DNA from: Chloroflexota bacterium
Lineage (GTDB): Bacteria; Chloroflexota; Anaerolineae; Anaerolineales; Villigracilaceae
Assembly: GCA_013388855.1 (NCBI GenBank)
Contig: JACAEM010000025.1
Coordinates: 1 to 64,000 of the forward strand
DNA length: 64,000 bases
Reading direction: 5' to 3'
Part shown: positions 15,221 to 54,842 of the stretch, piece after piece
Position numbering within the stretch: the stretch's first letter is position 1
Layout: each line of letters begins with the position of its first letter
Made by a program: the position numbers and the translations under genes
The notes under the pieces: generated by a model
Databases searched by the model: none
Told to the model about the DNA's origin: nothing
What the model saw: only the letters and a program-made list of their open reading frames with translations

Positions 15221-18200
15221 CTACTTTTCTGTGGTTACGCTGACCAATACCGCGCGGACCATACGCCGGGAGGAGTAATCCTTTGTCACCTCCTGGAAAC
15301 CCTCACAGGTGATGAGCGTCAGCCAGGATTTCTCCTGAGGCTTGAGCATGGCGGAGGTGTCTGTGGGGGTTATAGTTGTTGTCTCACGAACTTCGTATAT
15401 GTAAACCTGGCCAAAAGCGTGGATTTTGACCTGGTCACCGTATTTCAATTCCTTCAAGCGGGCGAATGGACCGGGCTTGTTAAGCGCGTCCCAGACGTGC
15501 GCGGTGATGACCGAGTTCCCCTTCCATGTGGGGAAGGCGGAACCATTCAACCAGCCGGCGTTGCGGTTCAGCCAGGTCACATCCCAACCGGCGCTGGTCT
15601 TGGGAACGCCCAGGACCGCGATCTTCACGCCGAGGGTGGGAATCTCGATCCACATATCGGTGGATGAATATGTCAGACCAGCAGGCTGGGTGGGGATGTC
15701 TGTCACTGTGCCCATCGCGAAACCGGTCTTGGGCACCGACGCTGTCGCCTGAACCACTCTGAAGTCGATGATTGTGTCAGCCGCGCCGTCGTTGAGTTCG
15801 TTGCCGGTCAGGTCTTCAATGGAGGTTGTGCCGCACACAAACAGATGATAGGAGCCGACAGGCAATGGTGTGCCGCCGTTGATGTCCAGTGTGGCAACGA
15901 ACGGCCCACCGCCTCCGTTATTGGTGTACGTTGCGGCGTCGAGGGCAATCTGTACATCGTCGCCCTGAACGCCGAGGGCGCAGGAGGCCGTATCCAGTGT
16001 ACGGTTTGCTCCGTTTTGGATGAGCAGATAATTGACGAGGTTGTTCACCGCGCCCGCCGAGCCATCATTCTTCACGTCTTCGTTAAATGCAACCCTGAGT
16101 TGGCTCGGTCCGCCGGAAACAGTCGCCCCATCTGCAGGGACAGTGTTGGCGTCGAATAGCACAACGGGTCCGGCATTATCGACGAGGAAGGGTACGGAAG
16201 GTCCCGCGGCGAGACTGATATTTCCGCCTGCGTCCGTTGCGATGCCCGCGGCGATGGAAATGCCGATGGTGCCGCTCCCGGTCACGCCGCTGATAGTAAC
16301 GGTCGGATTGGCGGTATTCCCGTTCGTGATCGTGACCGTGGTCGCCGCGGCGCTGCCGGTGGTATTCAGGGTCACATCTGCGGGTGTGAGATTGACGGTC
16401 GTCGCTCCGGCGACGGTCACCGCAAAATCAACGGGACCCGTGACCGTTGCCGCGGGAACCGGAGTTCCAATTGTCACGATGGGCCCGGTGGTGTCGTACG
16501 TCACGGTATTGTCTGTGCTGGTGGATGCGGCATTGCCGTTCCCGGCGTCATCTGTGACAACGCCGCCGTTGATGGTTGCGATTACTGTGCCTTCGCCGGT
16601 CATCCCGCTCACCGCCACGTTGTAGATGGCAGGTCCGCCGGTCACGACTGCGGTGGTCGCGCCCGCCGTACCAGAGAGGGTCACATCGCTTGCGCTAAAA
16701 CCGTTCACATCCTCATTGAATGTGACTGTGAAATTGATGGGCGACGCATTGGTAGGGTCAGGTTGTGTGCCCGCCTGATTGATGGTGACGGTGGGCCCTG
16801 TAGTGTCGTAAGTGACGGTATTGTCGGCGCTGGTGGATGCAAGATTAAGATTCCCAGCGGAATCAGACGCCACACCGGCAGGGATGGATGCGATCACGGT
16901 TCCATCTCCGCTCATGCCTGATACCGCTATGTTATAGGTGGTGCCGCTCCCGGTGACGACGGCGGTGGTCGCGCCCGCCGTACCAGAGAGGGTCACATCG
17001 CTTGGAACAAAGTCATTGACCAGGGCGCTGAACGTGACGGTAAAGTTAATGGGCGACGCATTGGTTGGATCGGTCTGTGAGCCAGCCTGGTTGATCGTGA
17101 CGTCTATCGGCGTGCCGGTGATGACGCCCGTGAAATCCTGTACGAAGGTGACATCATAGTTGTTGCCGCCGTTACCGTCGGTGACCGTCCCGGCGGGGGT
17201 GAGGGTTTTGCCCACGCCGACCAGCGGGGTGTCGAAGGTCTGCGTCCAGACAGCGGTGTCGCCGGGAGCCAGCGAGCCGGACGTGATGGTTGGAACGCCC
17301 GTCGAAGTGACTGTCCCGTCATAGGGCTTGGTATCTGTAACGGCGGTGACTGTGATGGCTCGCTGGATGATCTCGCCGGTCGTATTGTCGATGAAGGTGA
17401 CATCATAGTTGTTCCCGCCGTTGCCGTCGTTGACTGTTCCGGCAGGGGTGAGGGTCTTGCCGGTACCGACATGTTTGGCGTCGAAGGTCTGCGTCCAGTT
17501 GGCAGTGTCGCCGGTTGCCAGCGCCCCCGTGGTGATCGAGGGTATGCCAATTGAAGCGGTGGTGCCGTCGTAGGTTTTGGTGTCTGTTGCGGCGGTCACT
17601 GTGATTGCCAGCGATGTGATATCGGCATTGTCGGTGTCGGTCGTTGTTGCGAGCGTATAATTTCCGCTGTCTGTGCCGCTGAGGACGAGGCCTGTTGCGG
17701 TGACAAGTTTATTCACCCCGACATGTTTGTCTGAAAAATCAGCAGTCCCGCCCGTGCAGGTCACATCGTCCATGCCGATGACGCCTGAAAGAGTGCAAGT
17801 GAAGGTCGCGGCGGTCGTACCATCATAGATCTTGTCATTGGCAGTGATGTTTGGCGTGACGGCAAGTCCCGTGATCGTGAACGTGGCGGTGTTATAGGTG
17901 ATGTTATAGTTTCCCAGCACCCCTGCTGGACTCAGGGCCGCGCTGATGGTGTAGTTTCCAACACCCTCACCCGCAGTACGAGTATACGTGGCAGTGACCC
18001 CATCCGCTGGCAGGAAGCCGGTCAACGTTCCATTCGTCAGCGGGATGGGATCGGGGTCGCCATATGCTTTGTCTGCGTCGTTGGGGGTGACGGAAGCATC
18101 GCGAGCAATGATGTTGAAATCTGTTGAAACAAAGGTGAGGGCGTAATTTGCATTTGCAGAGAGGGTTCCCTGCGTAATCGCGTAGTTGCCAACAGTCTCG

Positions 18201-20140
18201 CCAGCCGCGCGGCTGAGCGCACCGGTAAGGGTGTCTGATCCGGCCAGAGAGCCGGATGTGATCTGGTAGGTAAAGACTGGGTCCACATCGCCGTACACCT
18301 TGCTTTGTCCGCTATCCGCGGTGACTGTGATGGCGCGCATCGCAATGGTGAGCGTGCCGTTATTGGCGGGGTTACTGGTGCTAGAAAGAAAGCTGCCGAA
18401 GCCTGAAAACTCTGCGCGGACCGTGTAATTGCCGACATTCAATGCGCTGGGGTTATAGGTGAGCGTGGCAATACCAGTCCCGGCGTTCACAGATACAGGA
18501 GCGCCAACGGGGTTCCCGTCAACATAGAATTGAACCGTTCCGCCGCCCGGATTGGGAAAGACAGTAGCGGAAAGGTCCACCGACACATCCCCATAGGTCG
18601 CGTTGGCATTTGCGACAGTTGTGGATGTTGCCGTGCCGCCAGCCTCGAATGCGCCGATGTCGCAGGCAATTCCTTGCGGACGCGTCACGCCGCGTTGGTC
18701 GGTCGCGGCGCAGGCAGTGGTGACTCCGCCCGTGTCAAGCGCCGAACTCCCGGCGCTGATTGCCATTGTTTGTGTAAAGCCGCCGTTATTGGAAAGCGCG
18801 CTCAGGTTGGGATTCGTTGTGATGATATTCGTCCCGCCTGCAAACCCGCCCTGCACGACGCTGTCGGATATGGTCGTCGTACCGGTTCCGTCGCTGACAA
18901 TCTCGCTGGAATCTCCCCAGAAGATGCTGTTGCGAATGACAGGATTGCTGGTCAGAACAAGCCCGGCAGGGTCAATGACATTTCGGATCGCCCCCCCGGT
19001 GATACCGTTGGCGGTGCTGATATTGCCGCTGAAGGTAACATTGTTCAAAACCGGATTACTGGCAATGTTCAAGATTCCGCCGCCGCCGCGCGGGTCGGCT
19101 CCCACATTGTTTGATGTGTTCCCGTTAAACGTCACGTTGGTCAGCGTCGGGTTAGCAAATTCGTTCAACATGCCTCCGCCTCTGCGAGTGGCGGTATTTC
19201 CGCTGAACGTGACGTTGTTCAAGATCGAATCGCTGTACGTATTGAATAGACCGCCGCCTCCGGTGGCAGTGTTATTGCTGAATGTAACGTCCGTTAATCT
19301 TGGGATGCTGCGCGCATCGGTGGCGGCATTGTAAACCTGACTGTTCATCCCACCGCCCGCACCGTTGTTGGCGACATTTCCGCTGAAAACGACTCTGGTC
19401 AGTATTGGGCTGGCGTTCTGGGCAAAGAGCCCTCCACCGCGTCCGGCAGTGTTGTTGCTGAATGTAACGTCGGTAAACGAGGGTCTGGAATAACTGGCTT
19501 CCGGCAGGAGGTTGTTGACCGTGGTGACGAAGACGCCGCCGCCATTTGATGTCACTGAATTGTTTGTGATGACCAAGTTGGCAAGCGTAGGACTGCTGTC
19601 AGAGAGATACATCCCGCCGCCGATTCCGGTGCCTGAATTGTCGTTCCCATCCCTGATTGTGAAGCCGTCAAGAATCGTTCCACTCGAAACATTGAACGCG
19701 ACGACAACATGATAGGCATTGTTTGCATTGCCTGCCACTCCATCGATATCGCCGCTCAGGATGGTCACATTGACAGCTGGGTTGCGATCCGTGCGGACAG
19801 TCTCCGTGCCGTTGAATCCACCATACACCGACACGCCATTGACCAATTGAAATGTGCTGGTACGCGCGTTATTAGTCTGTCCTGCCCCCTCATCGGGATA
19901 ATATGTCCCCTCGGCCACCCAAATTTCATCTCCACTTGCCAGGGAGCCAAGGGTCAATGCATCCTGCAAAGTGGGGAAGGCAAGCGCCCAACTACAGCCG
20001 GTGGGGCTTCCTGCTGTCGAATCTTTATCGACATAGACGATCCCACTGCATGCGGCGGAAACCGGGCTAGGATGGAAGAACTGAAAAGCCAATGTTAGAA
20101 GAATTAAGAATGTAAACAGGAAATTTTTCGTGAACCTCAT
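15221..20140 (-). CDS. Secreted beta-helix / MBG-YDG repeat protein with C-terminal sortase domain
   Basis: 1639 residues. Signal peptide at residues 1-30 (cleavage near VSAAC). Residues about 30-490 are a choice-of-anchor-Q-like right-handed beta-helix with repeated NVTFSGN/NTA..GGG turns. Then an Ig-like domain, two MBG repeats (KVYGD, KAYGD), three YDG repeats (KIYDGTT, KTYDGTT, KPYDGT), three near-identical Ig-like repeats starting VTINQAG, and a final Ig-like unit. The last about 140 residues are a sortase: catalytic H1548 in VITAHVW, C1612 in TLITCEG, Arg in YSSRRMVR. VPKTGF (1469-1473 plus F) just before it resembles an LPxTG sorting signal. The sortase may act on its own chain or on other surface proteins. 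A perfect TATAAT lies upstream on the minus strand at about 20175-20185. Confidence 0.88.
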   Translation of the reverse strand: MRFTKNFLFTFLILLTLAFQFFHPSPVSAACSGIVYVDKDSTAGSPTGCSWALAFPTLQDALTLGSLASGDEIWVAEGTYYPDEGAGQTNNARTSTFQLVNGVSVYGGFNGTETVRTDRNPAVNVTILSGDIDGVAGNANNAYHVVVAFNVSSGTILDGFTIRDGNDNSGTGIGGGMYLSDSSPTLANLVITNNSVTSNGGGVFVTTVNNLLPEASYSRPSFTDVTFSNNTAGRGGGLFAQNASPILTRVVFSGNVANNGAGGGMNSQVYNAATDARSIPRLTDVTFSNNTATGGGGLFNTYSDSILNNVTFSGNTATRRGGGMLNEFANPTLTNVTFNGNTSNNVGADPRGGGGILNIASNPVLNNVTFSGNISTANGITGGAIRNVIDPAGLVLTSNPVIRNSIFWGDSSEIVSDGTGTTTISDSVVQGGFAGGTNIITTNPNLSALSNNGGFTQTMAISAGSSALDTGGVTTACAATDQRGVTRPQGIACDIGAFEAGGTATSTTVANANATYGDVSVDLSATVFPNPGGGTVQFYVDGNPVGAPVSVNAGTGIATLTYNPSALNVGNYTVRAEFSGFGSFLSSTSNPANNGTLTIAMRAITVTADSGQSKVYGDVDPVFTYQITSGSLAGSDTLTGALSRAAGETVGNYAITQGTLSANANYALTFVSTDFNIIARDASVTPNDADKAYGDPDPIPLTNGTLTGFLPADGVTATYTRTAGEGVGNYTISAALSPAGVLGNYNITYNTATFTITGLAVTPNITANDKIYDGTTAATFTCTLSGVIGMDDVTCTGGTADFSDKHVGVNKLVTATGLVLSGTDSGNYTLATTTDTDNADITSLAITVTAATDTKTYDGTTASIGIPSITTGALATGDTANWTQTFDAKHVGTGKTLTPAGTVNDGNGGNNYDVTFIDNTTGEIIQRAITVTAVTDTKPYDGTVTSTGVPTITSGSLAPGDTAVWTQTFDTPLVGVGKTLTPAGTVTDGNGGNNYDVTFVQDFTGVITGTPIDVTINQAGSQTDPTNASPINFTVTFSALVNDFVPSDVTLSGTAGATTAVVTGSGTTYNIAVSGMSGDGTVIASIPAGVASDSAGNLNLASTSADNTVTYDTTGPTVTINQAGTQPDPTNASPINFTVTFNEDVNGFSASDVTLSGTAGATTAVVTGGPAIYNVAVSGMTGEGTVIATINGGVVTDDAGNGNAASTSTDNTVTYDTTGPIVTIGTPVPAATVTGPVDFAVTVAGATTVNLTPADVTLNTTGSAAATTVTITNGNTANPTVTISGVTGSGTIGISIAAGIATDAGGNISLAAGPSVPFLVDNAGPVVLFDANTVPADGATVSGGPSQLRVAFNEDVKNDGSAGAVNNLVNYLLIQNGANRTLDTASCALGVQGDDVQIALDAATYTNNGGGGPFVATLDINGGTPLPVGSYHLFVCGTTSIEDLTGNELNDGAADTIIDFRVVQATASVPKTGFAMGTVTDIPTQPAGLTYSSTDMWIEIPTLGVKIAVLGVPKTSAGWDVTWLNRNAGWLNGSAFPTWKGNSVITAHVWDALNKPGPFARLKELKYGDQVKIHAFGQVYIYEVRETTTITPTDTSAMLKPQEKSWLTLITCEGFQEVTKDYSSRRMVRAVLVSVTTEK

Positions 20141-50180: not shown

Positions 50181-53100
50181 ATGTTTGCAAAGCGACCTGC
50201 CCCCGCCTGGTACCTCTATTTTTTCACTGCCATTGCCATCCTGGCTTCCAGCGTTGGGGTAATATCCGTCTCAGCCCAGACCGGTTTCCCATCCACAGGC
50301 GTACTCGATACTTTCGACCGCGCCAACGGACCTCTGGGAGGAAATTGGACGGGCGCCACCTACGGTTATGCCATTGCCTCGAACCGTATGGATGTGGGAA
50401 CAGGGGACGCGGTCTTCTTCAACACCCAGTTTGGTTCTGATCAAGAGGCGTTCGTCACGCTGACAACGGTCGACTCGGCCAGTTCCCAGCAGGCGCTTAT
50501 TCTCAAGGCTCAAAGTACAAATTCGTTGACGGCCGGGCTGATCGCGGTCTTGTACGATGCGGTAAACAGCCGGGTGCAGGTCTATACCTATTCGAACGCG
50601 CAAGGATGGGTGCAGCGCGGGACGAACATTCCGGTCACATTTGCGAACGGGGATCAGTTTGGGGCGCGGGCAAATCAAACCGGCATTGTAGATGTGTACA
50701 AAAATGGGGCTTTGGTTGCATCCCGCACGGCGACTGCCTGGACCTACACCGCGAATGGCGGATATACCGGTCTTTGGTTTGTCGGCGCGAGTAACGCTGT
50801 TTTAGACAATTTTGGCGGTGGGACCGTCTCTACAACCCCACCCAATACACCCAGCATTACATCAACCAACACCCCGACCTTCACTCCAACCAATACATCG
50901 GCATCCACTTCCACAAATACGCCTGTTTTCACACCAACCCATACGGCAACCTTCACGCCGACCAGTGTTCCCGCCTCACCGACCTCGACAAGCACATTTA
51001 CCAATACCCCTCTGCCGACTTTTACTTTCACGCCGTCGCTTACCTTCACCCCGTCCAGTACATTCACCCCCACTGCTACGAGTGCTCCCGATGTATATCG
51101 CGTATCAACAGGCGGTTCGACGGTTTCTACTTGCGGTACAAGCTGGGCAGATCCCTGCGACCTGCAATATGCCTTGTCGCTTGCTTCCGCCGGGGATGAA
51201 CTCTGGGTGATGCAGGGCACGTATATGCCGGGCGCCGACCGCGCCTCCACCTTCCAACTCAAGCATGGGGTGGCAGTGTACGGCGGGTTTACCGGCACGG
51301 AAACTGCGCGTACCCAGCGAAATTCCGACCCCGCCTCGAACGGAACGGTCTTGAGCGGCGATATCGGGACCGCAGGGGTGAATTCTGACAACGTTTATAA
51401 CGTGGTGACGATTACGGGGGCCTTGTCCAATATTTTCATCCTGGACGGTTTTACAATCACGCGTGGAAATTCGAATGGTTCCTCCGGTAACGGGGGAGGC
51501 ATTTACATTTCGAATGCCAGTCCAATGCTTGTCAATCTGATTGTGAGCAATAACAACGCCAGCGCAAATGGCGGCGGTTTATTTGTCAATACACCCAGCG
51601 CCACCCAGCGCGCTAATTATAGCGGACCCACGCTCACAAACGTCACTTTTAGCAATAATACTGCAGCGCGCGGCGGCGGCATGTATGCCATCAACGCCAA
51701 CCCTGTGTTGACGAATGTCACCTTCATCGGCAACTCTGCCAGTGGCGGGGCAGGTGGCGGTATGAACAACCAGACACTCAACGGTGCTCCCACCGACGAA
51801 TACAGCATTCCAGTGCTGACCAACGTCACTTTCAGCGGGAACACCGCGACCGGTGGCGGCGGCATGGCGAATATCAATAGTTATGCCATCCTGAACAATG
51901 TCACCTTTAATGGGAACTCTGCGACTCGGCGCGGCGGTGCAATCCTGAATGAGTATGCCGATCCGGTATTGACCAACGTTACCTTTAGCGGAAACAGTTC
52001 CAACGACTCCGGAACCGCGCCCGTCGGTGGCGGCGCGATCATGAACCTGGAAAGTGATCCGGTGTTCAGAAATGTCACATTTACCGGTAATTCCAGCGCA
52101 TCCGGCGGCGCGATCCGAAATGTCCAAAACAGCAATCCCCAAATCAGCAACAGTATCCTCTGGGACGATACAACCGGTGAGGTTACCAGTGACGGGACAG
52201 GCAACACAACGATCATCGACAGTGTTGTCGAGGGCGGTTTTGCCGGGACCAATATCATTACTACAGATCCCAATTTGAGCGCGTTGGCAAACCATGGCGG
52301 GTATACACAAACCCATGCGTTAGGGTCGGGTAGTTCTGCGCTGGATGCTGGTGGAGCAAATAGCACCTGCGCGGCGGCGGACCAACGCGGCGTGACGCGT
52401 CCGCAGGGCGTTGCCTGTGATATGGGTGCCTTCGAGTATGATGGCGCTCCATTCCCGACGCCCACCAATACAGCTACTGCTACGTTGACGAGTACTCCTT
52501 CCAATACGCCGACCATCACGCCGACGAATATTCCCGGCACGCCCACGTTGACGAGTACGGCTACGAATACCCCAATTCCCACTTTTACCTTTACGCCCAC
52601 GAATACATCAATGCCCACTGCAACCAGCGTACCAGACGTATATCGTGTATCGACGAATGGATCGACTATTCCTACTTGTGGTACAAGCTGGGCAAATCCC
52701 TGCGACCTGCAATATGTCTTGTCGTTTGCCTCCGCCGGGGATGAACTTTGGGTCATGCAGGGCGTTTATAAACCCGGCAATGACCGTACCTCCACATTCC
52801 AACTCAGGAATGGTGTGGCGGTTTATGGTGGCTTCACAGGCACCGAGACAAACCGCAGCCAGCGCAACTCAAATCCGTCCACGAATGGGACGGTTTTGAG
52901 CGGTGATATTGGTACAACAGGCGTCAATACCGATAATGTCTATAATGTAGTGACCATTCTCGGCAATGTTTCGGATGTGTATCTGCTGGATGGGTTTACT
53001 GTTACTGCCGGGAATTCGAACGGATCTTCAGGCAATGGCGGCGGTTTCCTGATCTCGAATGCCAGCCCAACCCTCTCCAACCTGATCATCAGCAACAATA

Positions 53101-54842
53101 ACGCCAGCGCGAATGGCGGCGGTCTGTTTGTCAATTCACCGAGCGCCACCTTGCGCGCCAACTATAGCAGCCCCACACTTACGAATGTGACCTTTAGTAG
53201 TAACACTGCAGCGCGCGGCGGCGGAATGTTTACACAAAATAGCAGCCCCGTATTGCTCAACGTGGTCTTTACCGGGAATGTGGCGAACGGTGGAGCGGGC
53301 GGCGGCATTAACAATCAGATACTCAATGAAGTGACCGATGAATATAGTATCCCGGTGCTCACCAATGTCACCTTCAGCGGTAACACGGCCAACGGCGGCG
53401 GGGGCCTGTTCAATAATCATAGTTATGCTGTTCTGACCAATGTCACGTTCAGTGGAAACACTGCCAATATCCGGGGCGGGGCGATCTTGAACGAGGGTGC
53501 GAACCCCATCCTGCGGAACGTGACCATTACCGGTAATGTTGCTCCGGCGGGAATGGGCGGCGCGATTCGGAACATCTTGAATGTTTCCCAAGTACCGAGT
53601 TACCCCCAGATCTATAACAGTATCTTGTGGGGCAATGGCGCCGACGAAATCACCAGCGATGGTACCGGCAGCACCACGATCATGGACAGTGTTGTACAGG
53701 GAGGATTCGCCGGGACAAACATCATCACGTCCGATCCCAATCTGGGTTCGCTTTCCAGTAATGGTGGGTTTACACAGACCCATGCATTGGGAGCGGGAAG
53801 TTCTGCCATCGATTCTGGCGGAGTGAATAGCGCCTGTGCTTCAACCGACCAACGCGGCGTTACCCGCCCGCAGGGCATTGCTTGTGATATTGGCGCATAT
53901 GAATATGATGGCATTCCAGCGCCGACGGCTACGAACACACCGATCACACTGACCGCCACACCCGTTCCTCCCACAACCACGTTTACCCCAACTGTCACGG
54001 CGACATTCATCCCGACGAATACCCCTGTTTCACCCACAGCCACCTTCACGCCAACAGCTACAAACACACCGCTCCCGGGCGCAAATGATATTCTCTACGT
54101 CAGTTCCACAACCGATGGCACAGTGGGCGGCGTTACATTTGCCGATGAGGATATTCTGTCTCTCAACAGGGCTACCGGCACGTGGTCCATGTATTTCGAC
54201 GGCTCGGATGTCGGCATTACCAGCGATGTTGATGCATTCGAACTGATGTCCAATGGAACGATATTGTTAAGTCTCGACGCCGATGGAACTGTGACAGGCT
54301 TCGGTTCCGTGGACGACTCGGATATCATCCGTTTTACCCCGACTTCGCTCGGCGCAAATACAGCGGGAACATTCAGCTGGTATTTTGATGGATCCGATGT
54401 TGGGTTAACCGCCACTGCAGAAGATGTGGATGCCATTGGCTTCGCCCCCGATGGAAGATTGATCGTCAGTACAAATGGCTCGTTTAGTGTTACCGGGGCA
54501 TCCGGCAATGACGAAGACCTGATTGCGTTCACTGCCACAGCGCTCGGCTCGACGACCAGCGGCACGTGGTCCATGTATTTCGACGGCTCGGATGTCGGCT
54601 TGAACGAAGCGACCTCCGAACAAATCAACGGTATTTGGATAGATCCGACCAACGCGAAGATCCATGTCACCACGATTGGTAATTTCTCTGTAACAGGCTT
54701 GAGTGGAAACGGCTCGGATATTTTTATCTGCACCCCCGGCACTTTGGGAGCCACTACAACCTGCACCTATTCATCCTATTGGCTTGGCGCTTCGAATGGC
54801 TTTGGCGGTGAAATAACGGACGGTATTCATATCATCCGATAG
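50181..54842 (+). CDS. Secreted beta-helix protein with duplicated choice-of-anchor-Q-like units and Thr/Pro linkers
   Basis: 1553 residues; AGGAG upstream, signal peptide 1-33 (ending VSA). Residues about 38-212 form a LamG-like jelly-roll. A Thr/Pro linker (FTPTNT-type repeats) leads to beta-helix unit 1 (from D304, VYRVST) and, after another linker, a near-copy unit 2 (from D819). Both have QLxxGVAVYGGFTGTET, NVTFSGNTA..GGG rungs and RGVTRPQG ends. After a third linker, residues about 1301-1553 hold three copies of a repeat with SMYFDGSDVG or SWYFDGSDVG. No membrane anchor or LPxTG is seen. It is homologous to the beta-helix of the sortase-fusion protein at 15221-20140. Likely an adhesin or extracellular matrix protein. 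Confidence 0.85.
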   Translation: MFAKRPAPAWYLYFFTAIAILASSVGVISVSAQTGFPSTGVLDTFDRANGPLGGNWTGATYGYAIASNRMDVGTGDAVFFNTQFGSDQEAFVTLTTVDSASSQQALILKAQSTNSLTAGLIAVLYDAVNSRVQVYTYSNAQGWVQRGTNIPVTFANGDQFGARANQTGIVDVYKNGALVASRTATAWTYTANGGYTGLWFVGASNAVLDNFGGGTVSTTPPNTPSITSTNTPTFTPTNTSASTSTNTPVFTPTHTATFTPTSVPASPTSTSTFTNTPLPTFTFTPSLTFTPSSTFTPTATSAPDVYRVSTGGSTVSTCGTSWADPCDLQYALSLASAGDELWVMQGTYMPGADRASTFQLKHGVAVYGGFTGTETARTQRNSDPASNGTVLSGDIGTAGVNSDNVYNVVTITGALSNIFILDGFTITRGNSNGSSGNGGGIYISNASPMLVNLIVSNNNASANGGGLFVNTPSATQRANYSGPTLTNVTFSNNTAARGGGMYAINANPVLTNVTFIGNSASGGAGGGMNNQTLNGAPTDEYSIPVLTNVTFSGNTATGGGGMANINSYAILNNVTFNGNSATRRGGAILNEYADPVLTNVTFSGNSSNDSGTAPVGGGAIMNLESDPVFRNVTFTGNSSASGGAIRNVQNSNPQISNSILWDDTTGEVTSDGTGNTTIIDSVVEGGFAGTNIITTDPNLSALANHGGYTQTHALGSGSSALDAGGANSTCAAADQRGVTRPQGVACDMGAFEYDGAPFPTPTNTATATLTSTPSNTPTITPTNIPGTPTLTSTATNTPIPTFTFTPTNTSMPTATSVPDVYRVSTNGSTIPTCGTSWANPCDLQYVLSFASAGDELWVMQGVYKPGNDRTSTFQLRNGVAVYGGFTGTETNRSQRNSNPSTNGTVLSGDIGTTGVNTDNVYNVVTILGNVSDVYLLDGFTVTAGNSNGSSGNGGGFLISNASPTLSNLIISNNNASANGGGLFVNSPSATLRANYSSPTLTNVTFSSNTAARGGGMFTQNSSPVLLNVVFTGNVANGGAGGGINNQILNEVTDEYSIPVLTNVTFSGNTANGGGGLFNNHSYAVLTNVTFSGNTANIRGGAILNEGANPILRNVTITGNVAPAGMGGAIRNILNVSQVPSYPQIYNSILWGNGADEITSDGTGSTTIMDSVVQGGFAGTNIITSDPNLGSLSSNGGFTQTHALGAGSSAIDSGGVNSACASTDQRGVTRPQGIACDIGAYEYDGIPAPTATNTPITLTATPVPPTTTFTPTVTATFIPTNTPVSPTATFTPTATNTPLPGANDILYVSSTTDGTVGGVTFADEDILSLNRATGTWSMYFDGSDVGITSDVDAFELMSNGTILLSLDADGTVTGFGSVDDSDIIRFTPTSLGANTAGTFSWYFDGSDVGLTATAEDVDAIGFAPDGRLIVSTNGSFSVTGASGNDEDLIAFTATALGSTTSGTWSMYFDGSDVGLNEATSEQINGIWIDPTNAKIHVTTIGNFSVTGLSGNGSDIFICTPGTLGATTTCTYSSYWLGASNGFGGEITDGIHIIR

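Follow-up and report, generated by a model that had tools for sequence, protein, structure and literature searches.

Sortases are generally thought of as shared membrane enzymes that act in trans on many tagged proteins. The locus described here raises the question of why a very long surface protein would carry, within one chain, both a sortase and a motif that a sortase could cut, and of what such an enzyme would do to the chain that bears it. The gene lies in the window, i.e. the whole stretch of 64,000 nucleotides of Chloroflexota DNA that was analysed, where its reading frame is open throughout and encodes 1639 aa. It and a polysaccharide-type cluster (NusG-like protein, sugar transferase, epimerase) are arranged divergently. 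The window also includes, at 50181-54842 (+), a gene for a 1553-aa secreted-looking protein with Chlam_PMP repeats, which shows neither a sortase match nor an LPxTG-type motif near its C-terminus. The features of the 1639-aa protein are listed in Table 1.

Table 1. Features of the gene encoding the 1639-aa protein, with window coordinates; numbers in brackets are residues.
Feature	Position	Strand	Basis or remark
Exported surface protein of 1639 aa with a candidate C-terminal self-sorting module	15221..20140	-	ATG start, stop codon included
Putative Sec-type signal peptide (1-29)	20054..20140	-	By eye; cleavage predicted after VSA
Beta-helix-like repeat region (Chlam_PMP repeats), then choice-of-anchor Q domain (443-500) at its end	18641..20053	-	Pfam, NCBIfam
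Big_3_5 Ig-like domain (508-592)	18365..18619	-	Pfam
MBG_2 domain (604-674), best of 2 stretches	18119..18331	-	Pfam
YDG domain (762-834), best of 3 stretches	17639..17857	-	Pfam
CopC-like (Ig-like) stretch, weak (1333-1361)	16058..16144	-	Pfam
VPKTGF sorting motif (1469-1474), scissile bond expected at Thr1472-Gly1473	15719..15736	-	Motif conservation
Motif-to-sortase linker	15650..15718	-	Near-fixed length; pLDDT ~96 in model block 31-40
Sortase domain PF04203 (1498-1633), without its own membrane anchor	15242..15649	-	Pfam, AlphaFold2, structure comparison
Catalytic His1548	15497..15499	-	Kept in 130/130 homologous modules
Catalytic Cys1612	15305..15307	-	Kept in 130/130 homologous modules
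Catalytic Arg1625	15266..15268	-	Kept in 124/130 homologous modules

The earlier note had described a giant chain carrying a sortase with an intact His, Cys and Arg and a sorting-like motif about 75 residues before the catalytic His, and this description holds. Indeed, PF04203 is matched with 83.8 bits (cut-off 26.6) and the NCBIfam sortase model TIGR01076 with 60.7 bits (cut-off 39.35), VPKTGF is the only P-x-T-G of the protein and Thr1472 is located 76 residues before His1548. The three catalytic residues fall in conserved columns of the family and align with the sortase site in both sequence and structure comparisons. None of the NCBIfam models of sortase classes C, D, E and F reaches its cut-off (C 55.4/160, D 38.1/165, E 34.8/160 and F 45.7/166 bits); the NCBIfam scan of the protein added the choice_anch_Q domain to its layout. 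The absence of a hydrophobic anchor after the motif, also pointed out in the earlier note, is borne out: past residue 60, the highest hydropathy over 19 residues is 1.38 (at residue 1283), the maximum for the whole protein lying in the signal peptide region. The transmembrane (TM) segment and basic tail that follow the motif in an LPXTG sorting signal (TIGR01167/PF00746) are absent from the protein, as is, outside the signal peptide, the membrane anchor typical of a classical sortase.

Homologous C-terminal modules were drawn from genomes of the class and of the family and from multi-copy genomes. Among the 101 distinct modules first assembled, 99 have the motif at an identical offset, the two exceptions being L050 (shifted offset) and L049 (no motif), and the module terminates the protein with a C-terminal tail of 0-19 aa, one module of the set being truncated where its contig stops. 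Near-copies, this contig-end case (L097) and L049 were excluded from an alignment of 90 modules, in which Pro1470, Gly1473, Phe1474, His1548 and Cys1612 are invariant, Thr1472 is kept in 87 rows (Ser in the three others) and Arg1625 in 89. The widest set includes 130 distinct modules with a score of at least 130 bits; it displays the motif Pro in 126, Thr or Ser in 126, and Gly and Phe in 129 each, so that P.[TS]GF is found in 126 modules and the full [LIVM]P.[TS]GF in 125 (catalytic residues in Table 1). The residue at position P4 is L in 92 of the 130 modules, I in 23, V in 6 and M in 4. VPKTGF is therefore LPxTG-like, as had been noticed, and the Val in place of Leu, which had seemed worth a remark, is a normal variant and no oddity. 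Upstream of the motif, the alignment has no majority residue. Downstream, of 148 locus records (which include some loci twice), 136 have a distance of 27-28 residues between Phe1474 and Pro1501 in the first strand. As the Pro, Gly and Phe of the motif are as strictly kept as the catalytic His and Cys, the motif is more than a chance occurrence. Judging from these alignments, the motif and the sortase are one conserved C-terminal module. Neither of the two outcomes that the earlier note named as counting against its reading, a motif not conserved among homologues and catalytic residues out of line with the sortase site, was thus encountered.

Sortases of other types served as controls. Among 47 other sortase frames, none has [LIVMF]P.[TS]G within the 100 aa upstream of the domain; two of them, L052 and L056, carry it about 148 aa upstream, before two TM segments. 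When the search was widened to 400 aa, 48 of 52 frames were devoid of this pattern, the 52 including L276 (a broken module) and L307-L310 (picked for their long frames). The four frames with the motif are L052, L056, L307 and L310, the last of which looks like a spurious upstream reading frame. L308 carries LPNTSG, a form that the control pattern does not match, and L309 carries neither form. Within the modules, loss of the motif goes with loss of the catalytic Arg: Arg1625 is missing from all four modules devoid of the motif Pro and Thr, versus 1 of 125 complete P.[TS]GF modules. The truncated L049 lacks both the motif and the Arg, and its sister L050 keeps the motif but has His in place of the Arg; the next Arg is kept in both. 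As this joint loss concerns two lineages only, it supports a link between motif and triad, short of proof. Co-variation of the P4 residue with sortase columns was limited to two independent pairs on supported branches, too few for any power.

The module is not a one-off of this protein. The same architecture, which the earlier note had proposed to look for elsewhere, is widespread in one family: with a threshold of E 1e-15, the sortase part is matched in 119 of the 150 family genomes sampled and in 23 of 26 genera, with 1-7 matches per genome, the motif itself having been verified in the fetched modules. A survey of 199 genomes of the class gave 20 matches at E 4.4e-36 or better, all from the same family except three from two other families, and the named carriers are Anaerolineae, including records labelled Anaerolinea thermophila and Anaerolineaceae. 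The genome to which the window belongs has two matches, the 1639-aa protein and a 2490-aa second giant with the same module and LPGTGF (L117 4362-11834, contig C44). In ten genomes selected for their 5-7 copies each (54 modules), the full motif and the His-Cys-Arg triad are kept together in 49 copies, and 52 modules lie in frames of at least 522 aa. The exceptions are the orthologues L283-L285, the fragment L276 with internal stops, and L272, which carries NPPSGF with an intact triad. In L283, L284 and L285 (genomes G520, G537 and G543), the motif Pro and Thr are lost and Trp replaces the catalytic Arg, His and Cys being kept. The ectodomains vary among the eight that were scanned and include DUF11, SdrD_B, He_PIG, cadherin-like (below cut-off), Big_3_5 and List_Bact repeats; isopeptide-forming fimbrial domains are also found in ectodomains of module proteins.

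A fused module bearing its tag at a fixed distance and widespread in a family suggests that each protein probably fastens itself and then discards its enzyme. More precisely, we consider it slightly better than an even bet, from the sequences, that the motif and the sortase constitute a self-sorting anchor module, which would cleave its own LPxTGF, pass the ectodomain to an amine of the envelope and leave. With the architecture, the conserved motif, triad and linker length and the missing membrane anchor as observed facts, the process can be pictured as follows. The 1639-aa precursor would exit through Sec, and the sortase, being C-terminal, would fold last, with its own LPxTGF already in the groove; the enzyme would thus appear only after the whole ectodomain is out. 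Cys1612 would then attack Thr1472, leading to a thioester between ectodomain and enzyme. An envelope amine, most likely that of a peptidoglycan peptide or its cross-bridge, would take over the ectodomain, and an enzyme fragment of 167 residues starting at Gly1473 would be set free. Each sortase would be used a single time, doing duty for the membrane anchor and basic tail that a normal sorting signal has. Self-cleavage, one of the fates raised in the earlier note, is thus the best-supported one when coupled to transfer, as we infer from conservation and layout. Cyclisation, another of them, finds no support and was dropped: the mature protein, as predicted by eye, starts with ACSG... and has no N-terminal Gly. 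In favour of self-fastening are a motif about as strict as the active site, the near-fixed spacing, the paralogues that stay intact, the joint loss of motif and Arg, a position of the motif at or near the class C lid site by alignment ranges, an ordinary-looking LPxTGF signal in the genome, fused relatives with TM segments, genes that could supply an acceptor and an engineered fusion that reacts intramolecularly. Against it are the lack of an anchor that would hold the precursor at the cell, those structural registers that do not fit the lid of class C sortases, L050 with its motif and no Arg, L272 with NPPSGF and an intact triad, and the standalone sortases of the family.

AlphaFold2 gave confident models of the module of the 1639-aa protein (pLDDT 93.2) and of its paralogue L003 (92.8). 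In these models, the ten-residue block including the motif has a mean pLDDT of 86-88, the next block 96-98, and the segment has no regular secondary structure. Foldseek and VIA-align match the models to sortases of several classes (for example 5cuw: Z 18.6, rmsd 1.8 over 138 residues). A class E sortase is at the top of the fold ranking, with class A and C rows tied; by sequence, the two solved structures that match best are both pilus (class C) sortases. These pilus matches are consistent with the trans self-polymerisation of the chains, a possibility already evoked in the earlier note, in which the sortase of one chain would cut the motif of another and join it to a lysine of a neighbour to build a covalent polymer or mesh. 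The second giant, which carries six stretches of the fimbrial isopeptide-forming domain model TIGR04226, points in the same direction. Polymerisation is thus possible but appears unlikely: a reaction in cis would agree better with the near-fixed spacing and with the confidence at which motif and linker are modelled, the ectodomains differ between the scanned copies, and the fold ranking does not single out class C.

The location of the motif in the models raises a second alternative. Class C sortases carry a lid, namely D58/W60 in SrtC-1 according to the part of PMC5640630 drawn on here, and D84-P85-F86 in GBS SrtC2 and D90-Y92 in SrtC1 according to that of PMC3493515; the same part of PMC3493515 describes this lid as overlapping the LPAT peptide in its complex with SrtA, the two prolines coinciding. 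For many class C sortases that have a lid, the alignment with the first model begins at about residue 22 of the model; for others it begins only at residues 44-48. Placement was read from the first and last aligned residues, i.e. from alignment ranges, and 2w1j, 4g1h and 4g1j were assigned from structure titles to SrtC-1, GBS SrtC2 and SrtC1, respectively. At the start of the alignment, residue 22 of the first model pairs with residue 55 of 2w1j, 81 of 4g1h and 79 of 5k9a, and residue 18 pairs with residue 82 of 4g1j (lid 90-92). Read without gaps, 2w1j and 4g1h place Pro1470 on the lid proline, and 4g1j misses it by one residue. When the second model is read likewise, 2w1j and 2wts agree with this register, 4g1j deviates by 2 residues and 4g1h by 7. 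By these ranges, the motif is at or near the site of the class C pseudo-substrate lid in two models, and so probably sits in the substrate groove.

A motif docked in this way could equally be an inhibitory lid. The motif might then be nothing but a pseudo-substrate that closes the sortase, as the DPX lid does in class C, the real substrate being elsewhere; the position of the motif in both models and the high pLDDT of the segment agree with this. We nevertheless regard such a purely inhibitory role as improbable. The known lids, in the part of PMC3493515 drawn on here, are Asp-Pro-aromatic and not LPxTG, and the conserved Thr/Ser-Gly scissile pair would be superfluous for a lid. Moreover, the fetched modules end surface proteins of their own, and the genome scan found only one other LPxTGF-TM protein.

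That protein leads to a third alternative, in which the giant would be sorted in trans at VPKTGF by a separate membrane-anchored sortase, its fused sortase being accessory. The enzyme concerned would be a membrane-type standalone sortase of 305 aa (contig C17). Besides this one and the two fused sortases, the genome encodes a divergent, exported sortase-like protein of 244 aa (L004 1213-1947, contig C4), which is below the Pfam cut-off; apart from a segment resembling a signal peptide, no membrane anchor is seen in it by eye. A search of the genome for sorting signals gave nothing over cut-off with PF00746 and nothing at E 0.1 with TIGR01167. A scan for [LIVMF]P.[TS]GF, which requires Phe after the motif and may thus miss ordinary signals devoid of it, found 47 places, two being the fused modules; the 45 others were translated. 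One of them, LPNTGFVDEYG-TM-RRLRAAPVR, resembles an ordinary signal and terminates a protein of 179 aa (L301 7166-7705, also L255, contig C27), and the view that the genome has no ordinary LPxTG protein was dropped on finding it. Scanned alone, this protein reaches 17.7 bits with TIGR01167 (cut-off 15.9), so genome-wide model searches miss such signals. It has an orthologue with LPNTGL in genome G482 (L303 7445-7999). Both proteins have an N-terminal TM segment, a Thr/Pro-rich stretch and an LPNTG(F/L)-TM-RRLR end, and both genes lie behind similar genes (582-584 and 351 aa). In the family, TIGR01167 is over cut-off in 65 of 100 genomes; among 12 such loci fetched, an LPxTG-TM-basic end within 60 residues of the stop was found in L207 only. 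From these sequences, this lineage probably uses LPxTG(F) as a functional signal.

As this ordinary-looking protein exists, some sortase of the same genome probably sees LPxTGF in trans, and a standalone-size sortase frame (302-384 aa), found in all 17 family members surveyed, makes trans processing possible. That the giant itself is handled in this way nonetheless seems quite unlikely. The intact triad of 49 of 54 fused copies would lack any reason, no membrane anchor keeps the giant near a membrane enzyme, and the motif-less lineage has lost the fused Arg too. Furthermore, a single functional copy would suffice for every substrate in trans, and the paralogues of the ten high-copy genomes nevertheless mostly stay intact, which favours one enzyme per copy. 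Self-release, in which the module would cut its own motif with water as acceptor and shed the ectodomain, is very improbable: the chain has no anchor and sortases can hydrolyse where no amine is at hand, but the LPxTG-TM-loop-TM-sortase relatives described below look like wall anchoring, and a sortase would be an odd tool for plain secretion as leaving the module out would give the same result.

For self-fastening to the envelope, an acceptor amine is plausible, since the genome has eight peptidoglycan transpeptidase matches (two being pieces of one gene) and two FemAB-type ligase genes, the latter being a possible source of this amine. These two genes, of the peptidoglycan bridge type, are adjacent (contig C29:108285-110351).

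The fold and the motif are known; the arrangement appears to be new. It shares with the LPXTG sorting signal and class A/E sortases an LPxTG-type motif, the sortase fold and the His, Cys and Arg; it differs in that the enzyme is in the chain of the substrate, lacks a membrane anchor and occupies the usual place of the TM segment and basic tail. The likeness to class C sortases lies in the best sequence matches and, from alignment ranges, in an N-terminal segment at or near the lid site, whereas this segment is here LPxTGF (V/L/I-P-x-T-G-F) and not DP-aromatic/DPX, there is no TM segment, and the class C model stays under its cut-off. The Hedgehog autoprocessing domain, at the C-terminus of its protein, becomes linked by a thioester to the N-terminal part of the chain, hands that part over to an acceptor, cholesterol in its case, and leaves, much as is proposed here; its fold is different. 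The closest layout is that of the engineered STEPL, likewise a protein, LPxTG, a spacer and a sortase in one chain; the present module is natural, conserved across a bacterial family and has a linker of near-fixed length. The section of PMC10426327 drawn on here reports that protein-LPETG-spacer-SrtA reacts intramolecularly and that transpeptidation frees the sortase, and that of PMC2901362 reports engineered self-cleaving fusions with the sortase in front. For a natural LPxTG-sortase fusion, no precedent was found in the portions of the open-licence PMC literature covered, which gave engineered ones only. In the module, the membrane anchor of the tag is replaced by the enzyme itself. If self-fastening is true, wall anchoring would need neither the membrane anchor of a sorting signal nor a shared sortase. 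If it operates in cis, the module would be a self-contained anchoring cassette, a natural equivalent of what protein engineers have independently constructed. It would also illustrate one way of fixing giant proteins to the envelope in Anaerolineae-type bacteria, and would be a source of compact sortases with a built-in substrate.

Possible traces of the origin of the module are found in other fused proteins. L052, L056 and L307 (genomes G391, G443 and G409; frames of 3964, 1078 and 3492 aa) display in one frame an ectodomain, LPTTGQ, LPVTGV or LPATGQ respectively, a TM segment, a basic or polar loop, a second TM segment and the sortase. L308, from a genome that shares only the phylum (G079, 1141-aa frame), has LPNTSG, a TM segment, an Arg run, a TM segment and the sortase. 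A fused substrate and membrane sortase in one polypeptide is thus encountered in four genomes of the phylum. Each of these four chains has the appearance of a whole sorting-signal protein fused to a whole membrane sortase. They are perhaps an earlier stage, from which the type of the 1639-aa protein could have derived by loss of both helices, an order of events that we infer. In our estimation, the following broader proposal has about an even chance of being right: a natural single-use sortase would act in cis, ligate the ectodomain of its chain either to the envelope or to the next chain, and then be discarded; it would have arisen by fusion of a complete substrate gene and a complete sortase gene followed by the loss of both helices. 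In a tree of 120 domains (thinned rows, few columns, a quick method, SH-aLRT supports only, midpoint rooting, L307 and L308 outside), L056, on a long branch, is not beside the module clade, the long-branched L052 adjoins it (87), and this clade (SH-aLRT 97) unites all 71 rows with the motif and also takes in two rows without it.
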